This document shows, piece after piece, positions 17,482-18,607 of a stretch of 64,000 nt of DNA. The stretch covers positions 1 through 64,000 of the forward strand of contig QCHT01000009.1 in assembly GCA_003279445.1 (NCBI GenBank). The letters run 5' to 3'. Both the position numbers and the translations under genes were made by a program. The first letter of the stretch is position 1, and every line of letters starts with the position of its first letter. Source of the DNA: Prochlorococcus sp. AG-402-G10. Its GTDB lineage: Bacteria; Cyanobacteriota; Cyanobacteriia; PCC-6307; Cyanobiaceae. Below the pieces are notes generated by a model. It was not told the DNA's origin and made no database searches. It worked only from the letters and a program-made list of their open reading frames with translations.

Positions 17482-17796
17482 TGGGATATCAGCGATTGGC
17501 TAATGGGTGGTTGTGAAAAAATAGGTTAGTAATAGCTTGAATCCCTTTGTTTTTCCCAAGACTTTTGAATACGTTGTTGGATTTTGAAGGGTATTTATTA
17601 AGTTGCGATTTAACGATTGAATTTTCAATCTTTGAACCCTTAAGTTTGGGCTTTGTTAATGAGACTGCTTCTAGCCAGATGTGAATATTTTGTCTAGTTT
17701 TAAAAAGAACTGGTTATCCCTAGCAATTATGCTTCGGTGCTTCGCCGAGGTAGTAGTCACGCTACACAACCATCATCATCTGCCTTCACACATTCA
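17482..17796. other. Gene-free stretch
   Basis: No coding frame with protein-like content was seen. A small hairpin (TCGG ... CCGA around 17734-17748) precedes the large nested hairpin that starts at 17797. Confidence 0.4.
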
Positions 17797-17882
17797 GGCT
17801 GTGACTGGTTACAGTTTTCAGCCGCTTAACTGAATCGACTGCAGGCAGTCCCCACGGCTGAGGCCTGTAAACAGTCACAGCC
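17797..17882. ncRNA. Three-tier nested hairpin, candidate structured RNA
   Basis: Outer arms 17797-17814 and 17865-17882 pair over 18 positions with one mismatch or wobble. Middle arms TCAGCCG (17818-17824) and CGGCTGA (17855-17861) pair inside them. A further hairpin GACTGC-AG-GCAGTC (17837-17850) sits at the tip. The segment is clearly richer in G and C than its surroundings. It does not match tmRNA, RNase P or SRP RNA motifs I know. It could be a small RNA on either strand or a mobile palindromic element. Confidence 0.5.
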
Positions 17883-17929
17883 GAAGGTGCGCTCGACATC
17901 GATCTCAGTCGGGATAGTAGGGGTAATCA

Positions 17930-18073: not shown

Positions 18074-18251
18074 TCAACTAGCTTTCTCTGCTTTTCATCT
18101 GTGGAGCAAATAATAAGCGTTTCAATTAATCTTTGATTGCATACTGCCAACGAGGGCAAGTGCTGTATTTGTTTTCTAGCTGATCTAGCTTAAGGCTTTA
18201 TGCTGCTAACTCTTCTTATGCCAGCAAATCTAGGAGAATTTAGAAAGGCAC

Positions 18252-18343
18252 AAAAAAACCTGCCCGAAGACAGGTCTTTTTGGAGATCTTAAGCAAGTGT
18301 TTCCTTGTTTCCACTGCTGGAGGATCTCAACTCCTCACAACGG
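18252..18343 (-). ncRNA. Yfr2-family-like small RNA
   Basis: On the minus strand a 5' stem-loop (GAGGA ... TCCTC) is followed by TGGAAACAAGGAAACAC (18297-18313), which carries the GGAAACA element twice as in the cyanobacterial Yfr2 family. It sits in a loop closed by AGCA/TGCT. The RNA ends in a strong intrinsic terminator: ACCTGTC, tetraloop TTCG, GGCAGGT, then seven T (18252-18275). Total length of about 90 nt fits the family. Yfr2 RNAs are abundant; their role is not settled. CATATTT about ten bases upstream may be the -10 box. Confidence 0.75.
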
Positions 18344-18437
18344 AAATATGCCACATGTTCTTCAAAAGTGCGAGAAATTATCTAAAAACACTCAAAACTG
18401 TCACATGTGCCAATTGTAGGTCCAGGAAAAATTAGAT

Positions 18438-18500
18438 AGAAAAAAGAGCGCCCTTAACTAGCAGCGCTCTATCGGACAATTATGTGAGGAGTGTCCTTAT
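18438..18500 (-). ncRNA. Candidate small RNA displaying a CUCCUC loop
   Basis: On the minus strand GGACA, loop CUCCUCACAUAAU, UGUCC (18474-18496) presents an anti-Shine-Dalgarno-like sequence in an apical loop. It is followed by an intrinsic terminator (18439-18470). ACTCCTCACA resembles the core of the cyanobacterial small RNA Yfr1, but Yfr1 keeps its motif single-stranded between two hairpins. The ten bases are perfectly complementary to the 5' end of the Yfr2-like RNA about 150 bp downstream. It could instead be the 3' untranslated end of the gene at 18608-19021. Confidence 0.5.
18439..18470 (-). terminator. Intrinsic terminator
   Basis: AGAGCGC, a 12-nt loop and GCGCTCT are followed on the minus strand by TTTTTT. 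It would end transcription from the gene at 18608-19021 and the candidate small RNA. Confidence 0.8.
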
Positions 18501-18607
18501 CTTTTCTACTCCTGCTAAGGGTCTTTTGTGACTTATTTAAGAAAAGAAACTTTTTTGAATGATTGGACTTGTCTTGCTCCTCTTTGGGTTGGAAACGGTT
18601 TTATGAT

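Follow-up and report, generated by a model that had tools for sequence, protein, structure and literature searches.

The locus examined here, in a window of 64 kb (the whole stretch of DNA analysed), is very probably a Prochlorococcus Yfr10-Yfr2 tandem whose two small RNAs act as a mutual titration (sponge) pair; the loop RNA would have mRNA targets as well. We observed the sequences of both RNAs, structures with compensatory changes, exact complementarity and conservation across loci. The window pair is the Prochlorococcus version of the described and partly experimentally tested Yfr10/Yfr2 system, which makes the finding sound and mostly not new. The features of the locus are as follows:

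18526-18531, minus strand: putative promoter-like TCACAA, 17 nt upstream of the Yfr10-like TAGAAA; TGACAA in relatives (tandem copies)
18503-18508, minus strand: candidate -10 element TAGAAA of the Yfr10-like gene, conserved upstream of tandem copies
18433-18499, minus strand: Yfr10-like RNA with the Yfr1 motif in a hairpin loop, then a terminator (own covariance model R1; sub-threshold Rfam Yfr10)
18474-18496, minus strand: loop-presenting hairpin GGACA-N13-UGUCC (folds, covariation)
18483-18492, minus strand: core ACUCCUCACA, which matches 10 nt of the 11-nt Yfr1/Yfr10 motif ACUCCUCACAC and is invariant in 12 aligned copies
18440-18469, minus strand: intrinsic terminator of the Yfr10-like RNA, GAGCGC..GCGCUC plus U6 (folds; two pairs with double changes)
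18396-18415, minus strand: imperfect near-palindrome AATTGGCACATGTGACAGTT, about 60 nt upstream of the Yfr2 start, a candidate regulator site
18345-18350, minus strand: candidate -10 element CATATT of yfr2, its position relative to UGUGAGGAG kept among yfr2 copies of the genus
18279-18344, minus strand: body of Yfr2 (Rfam Cyano-1, RF01701), its extent being that of the full-length Rfam alignment
18330-18339, minus strand: 5' pairing segment of Yfr2, UGUGAGGAGU, complementary without mismatch to the core in the upstream loop
18298-18312, minus strand: twin GGAAACA loop of Yfr2 (18312-18306 and 18304-18298), from the sequence and its alignment to the conserved Cyano-1 loop
18251-18275, minus strand: intrinsic terminator of Yfr2, ACCUGUCUUCGGGCAGGU plus a U run (sequence; paired in folds)

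Cyano-1 (RF01701) is the name that Rfam gives to Yfr2, and cmscan placed the downstream RNA in this family with 57 bits against a cutoff of 41 (E 2.8e-7). Together with the sequence and a terminator stem at 18275-18258 followed by the U run, this score confirmed the original prediction of a Yfr2-like RNA with twin GGAAACA elements and its own terminator. The window copy, one of four in the genome (1.62 Mb, 37 contigs, about 90% complete), resembles the family in its full-length match over the cutoff, its twin GGAAACA loop and its single-stranded 5' motif, and shows no notable difference from it. Its 5' end probably lies near 18338-18340. With the RNA start set at 18339, the segment UGUGAGGAGU had a predicted unpaired probability of 0.70-0.98; this fold hangs on the exact 5' end, and a start at 18341 or 18345 (at least two extra bases) sequesters the pairing segment. 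Across the 30 listed yfr2 copies the -10-like box keeps a constant distance, so the RNA should start at or beside UGUGAGGAG, which would leave the segment single-stranded in the predicted fold.

A second same-strand hairpin with a terminator, expected about 150 nt upstream, was found at 18433-18499(-), with 143 nt between the two complementary cores. This RNA scored 90.5 bits with our own covariance model R1, whose training set includes the window copy. The Rfam Yfr10 model (RF02362) aligned full-length over the same positions at 21.5 bits against a cutoff of 43, and we therefore class the window RNA as divergent and Yfr10-like, outside RF02362 by score. In its copy of the motif the last C is replaced by U; this base is C in other Yfr10-like copies, including that on C2 of the same genome, and C-to-U variants of the motif have been described for Yfr12 too (PMC2518516). 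In the minus-strand fold, GGACA and UGUCC (18496-18492 with 18478-18474) close a 13-nt loop bearing CUCCUCACA, and both folds and covariation place the motif exposed in a loop atop a stem. The claim that ten bases of this loop region are complementary to the 5' part of Yfr2 held in that the complementarity is exact over 10 nt, but the first A of the core lies in the stem (unpaired probability 0.2), leaving about 9 of the 10 nt displayed in the loop. A simple terminator scan of the minus strand listed neither the Yfr10-like nor the Yfr2 terminator; both terminators rest on sequence and folds, and the upstream one also on covariation.

The 10-mer ACTCCTCACA occurs in only two places in the window, at 18483-18492(-) and at 18330-18339(+), the latter being the complement of the Yfr2 5' end. 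These two occurrences compare with 0.07 expected in 64 kb, and none of 100 shuffles contained two. Cofolding of the two RNAs yielded a gain of -12.2 kcal/mol against a mean of -3.6 with shuffled Yfr2 (5 of 500 as good), and the window Yfr10-like RNA and Yfr2 are predicted to be able to pair. RNAduplex on the full-length RNAs gave an energy no better than that of shuffles (353 of 500 as low), and we consider this an uninformative test of binding because the program ignores internal structure.

The idea of a sponge-target or kissing pair was right but already known (Voss 2007, Steglich 2008, Lambrecht 2019), and it is supported by experiments on the MED4 homologues (PMC6778093) as well as by complementarity conserved across loci. 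In MED4, Voss et al. 2007 noticed that the Yfr1 motif occurs 150-160 nt ahead of the 5' end of Yfr2 (PMC2190773), and Steglich et al. 2008 named the MED4 RNA Yfr10, reported it as 78 nt long together with a 270-nt Yfr10/Yfr2 precursor, and proposed Yfr10-Yfr2 base pairing (PMC2518516). For the MED4 RNAs, Lambrecht et al. 2019 recovered Yfr1 and Yfr10 with Yfr2 as bait and, for the most part, the converse; pull-down, primer-extension and RNase E assays all showed the Yfr10-Yfr2 interaction. In E. coli, Yfr2 lifted the repression that Yfr1 exerts on a GFP reporter. Yfr2 also blocked the binding of Yfr10 to ppa, and Yfr10 abolished RNase E cleavage of Yfr2 (PMC6778093). In MED4, darkness raises Yfr10, whereas Yfr2 goes up under high light or when nitrogen is limiting; Yfr10 homologues lie upstream of Yfr2 in HL strains, the motif of Yfr10 sits in a loop on a stem, and Yfr10 is present in SS120 as well (PMC6778093). 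Like the tandem of MED4 and further HL strains, that of the window presents the Yfr1 motif in the loop of a hairpin, directly upstream of yfr2 on the same strand and roughly 150 nt ahead of the 5' end of Yfr2, has a terminator for each RNA and shows complementarity to the Yfr2 5' end. On the other hand, the window RNA differs from HL Yfr10 (RF02362) in sequence outside the motif, as its 21.5 bits reflect, its motif ends in ACAU where that of HL Yfr10 ends in ACAC, and its pairing comprises 10 uninterrupted bp while the HL form is bulged.

Three of the four yfr2 copies in this genome (C9, which is the window copy, C14 and C12) carry CTCCTCACA upstream on the same strand. On C9 and C14 the same Yfr10-like body precedes the Yfr2 loop by 177-179 nt; on C12 a different RNA body precedes it by 124 nt. 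At C14 a further Yfr10-like hairpin follows downstream of Yfr2 (L004 from about 1669), and the body shared by C9 and C14 also stands alone, with no adjoining yfr2, at C2:65760. Genome-wide, CTCCTCACA occurs 17 times, four times as the complement of Yfr2 and at least five times in a Yfr10-like RNA. C9 and C14 share a block of about 285 bp (roughly 18245-18529) at 93% identity, and the G002, G004 and G010 loci match it at 93-95% (BLAST); matches end at the block edges, except in G005, where the match is 689 bp. Beside the C14 Yfr10-Yfr2-Yfr10 cassette we noted by eye a serine-recombinase-like reading frame (L014 645-1226, minus strand), and the window tandem lies near rfbA/rfbB-like sugar genes, perhaps in an island-like setting, as with MED4 Yfr10/Yfr2. 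About 330 nt downstream of Yfr2 there is a G+C-rich, very stable long hairpin (17740-17925, minus strand; -72.9 kcal/mol, z -4.4), which had no fitting Rfam family, was absent from all 13 other genomes of the genus and is possibly a mobile inverted-repeat element.

To compare the Yfr10-like RNA among relatives, we aligned 12 copies, the window copy among them, drawn from eight genus genomes. Paired bases filled 97.9% of the cells, supporting both helices. Double changes were found in 9 cells against 2.5 in shuffles and affected three pairs across hairpin and terminator: the outer pair of the hairpin changes from G-C to C-G in 3 of the 12 copies, and two pairs of the terminator carry double changes; all of these sit in the G009/G011 copies, and the covariation has to be read with shared ancestry in mind. 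The covariance model built from these copies matched in 13 of 14 genus genomes (training copies match by construction) and in 45 of 121 genomes of the family sample. Rfam Yfr10 (RF02362) gave no match at E<=0.01 among the sampled genus genomes. Rfam Yfr1 was found in 94 of the 121 genomes of the family sample and in none of the 14 genus genomes, three of which are at least 99% complete. Nor was Yfr1 found in the three sampled genomes each of genera g16 and g39, both of which give strong matches to the Yfr10-like model. The absence of Yfr1 from the LLII/III lineage has already been published (PMC2190773), and its genus-wide lack agrees with an LLII/III placement.

These data also bear on what the upstream element is. 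It is very improbable that it is a leader or processing hairpin of a longer Yfr2 transcript instead of an sRNA of its own. The 270-nt precursor of MED4 (PMC2518516) would favor such a transcript, and the two RNAs here together span about 250 nt; against it stand the element's own terminator with compensatory changes, its conserved promoter-like region, the separate 78-nt Yfr10 that MED4 also makes (PMC2518516) and standalone copies with the same body but no neighbouring yfr2 (C2:65760 in this genome; L297 and L302). Still less credible is a relocated canonical Yfr1, despite a match to 10 nt of the 11-nt Yfr1 motif. Yfr1 is defined by an unpaired motif between two stem-loops (PMC2190773), whereas here the motif lies in a hairpin loop and at another locus; Rfam Yfr1 (RF01116) had no match at the window locus, and nothing in the genome reached E<=0.001, the top score being 14.8 bits at another place; we rejected this candidate on both architecture and model score.

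A search of other genomes for the same pair recovered it. Among the matches listed, 59 of 101 distinct named loci carry CTCCTCACA on the strand of the Yfr2 loop, 45-320 nt upstream of it; the loci were selected through an exact 18-mer from that loop, with enough flank, and the fraction is not a census. In regions of equal size at the same 101 loci, CTCCTCACA was found in none on the opposite strand, none downstream and none farther upstream. The opposite strand and shifted regions served as controls because the backwards-read pattern ACACTCCTC overlaps the real motif and is not independent of it. We rejected chance complementarity on these same-strand counts together with the window count and shuffles of ACTCCTCACA. 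In four named high-light-type loci (L017, L019, L025 and L037), Rfam Yfr10 scores over its cutoff directly upstream of a Cyano-1 that also does.

Two classes of Yfr2 5' end were seen. Copies with GTGAGGAG, the window included, mostly form 9-10 uninterrupted pairs with the upstream motif, and copies with TGTAGGAG, typical of high-light strains, mostly form 6-7 pairs plus a bulge. We consider it unlikely that the two RNAs are mere neighbours whose complementarity is a by-product, with the CUCCUCACA loop kept for ribosome-binding sites of mRNAs and the Yfr2 5' GAGGAG for partners of its own. In keeping with such a by-product, the Yfr1/Yfr10 motif hardly varies whereas the 5' ends of Yfr2 differ between the classes, and inside the genus the inter-RNA helix shows almost no compensatory change and none that is clear, so each motif could be conserved for other partners. 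However, the mean predicted local duplex energy is kept across both classes (-16.8 kcal/mol for GTGAGGAG and -17.4 for TGTAGGAG), the high-light motif is extended by AC where Yfr2 starts with GUGUGU, and direct binding and interference were demonstrated in MED4 (PMC6778093). The comparison of the two classes confirms that the pair is conserved but is a weak test of coevolution, as the change may be one clade-level event.

Several arrangements other than the simple tandem were noted among the matches. A second motif RNA downstream of Yfr2 makes a Yfr10-Yfr2-Yfr10 triple at L004 (1669-1744), L276 and L277 (770-845 in both), and that of L004, at 29.3 bits, comes closer to Rfam Yfr10. At L282, L290 and L291 (G005 C2, G012 C6 and G010 C1), a weak Yfr2 copy is convergent with a motif RNA of another class, in which ACTCCTCACA is followed by a hairpin with GGGAGTCTT..AAGACTCCC or the like, and a similar sequence occurs at C13:29137 in the genome studied here. 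For each of the standalone Yfr10-like copies L007, L297 and L302, a tRNA gene lies on the other strand no more than about 0.4 kb away, which suggests one syntenic locus in the genus. The Yfr2 loop sequence is also contained in L027 (PAAM01000015.1, labelled a Rhodobiaceae MAG), which is probably a misbinned cyanobacterial contig. On viral contigs with GGAAACAAGGAAACA, only two of about 120 stretches among the matches listed carry the longer GTGGAAACAAGGAAACAC; both are one sequence, without the Yfr2 5' motif or terminator, and there is no phage-borne Yfr2 among the matches listed.

Upstream of yfr2, a AACTGNCACATGTGACAGTT-like palindrome stands at the same place in about half of the 30 copies listed for the genus, and in several of them it is perfect (AACTGTCACATGTGACAGTT), about 60 nt before the Yfr2 start. 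We take it to be a candidate for CGRE1, the published site of a GntR-type regulator. Separate promoters would allow separate control of the Yfr10-like RNA and Yfr2, as reported for MED4.

In the proposed sponge pair, the upstream gene would produce a Yfr10-like sRNA of about 65 nt whose hairpin loop displays the Yfr1 motif ACUCCUCACA, and the displayed motif would cover complementary sites in mRNAs. Yfr2 from the downstream gene would pair with this loop through its single-stranded 5' end, and a rise in Yfr2, as under high light or nitrogen limitation in MED4, would titrate the Yfr10-like RNA and free its targets. The Yfr10-like RNA in return would shield Yfr2 from RNase E and block the 5' seed of Yfr2 itself. 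Each RNA has promoter-like elements and a terminator, and read-through could yield a two-sRNA precursor as in MED4. We infer that expression, binding, interference and the RNase E effect carry over to this strain from the MED4 homologues.

What is new here is a Yfr1-less low-light lineage with a compact, multi-copy family of loop-type RNAs that falls under the Rfam threshold and whose pairing with Yfr2 is uninterrupted. In this lineage we found no carriers of the motif other than the Yfr10-like RNAs, and some loop-type copies stand in duplicated Yfr10-Yfr2 or Yfr10-Yfr2-Yfr10 cassettes. We tentatively suggest, at somewhat less than even confidence, that in this lineage the multi-copy compact loop-type RNA took over the role of Yfr1, with uninterrupted Yfr2 pairing as opposed to the bulged HL form. 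A Yfr1-less lineage that retains only loop-type motif RNAs is a natural experiment, in which it is directly testable which targets need the architecture of Yfr1 and which need the motif alone.
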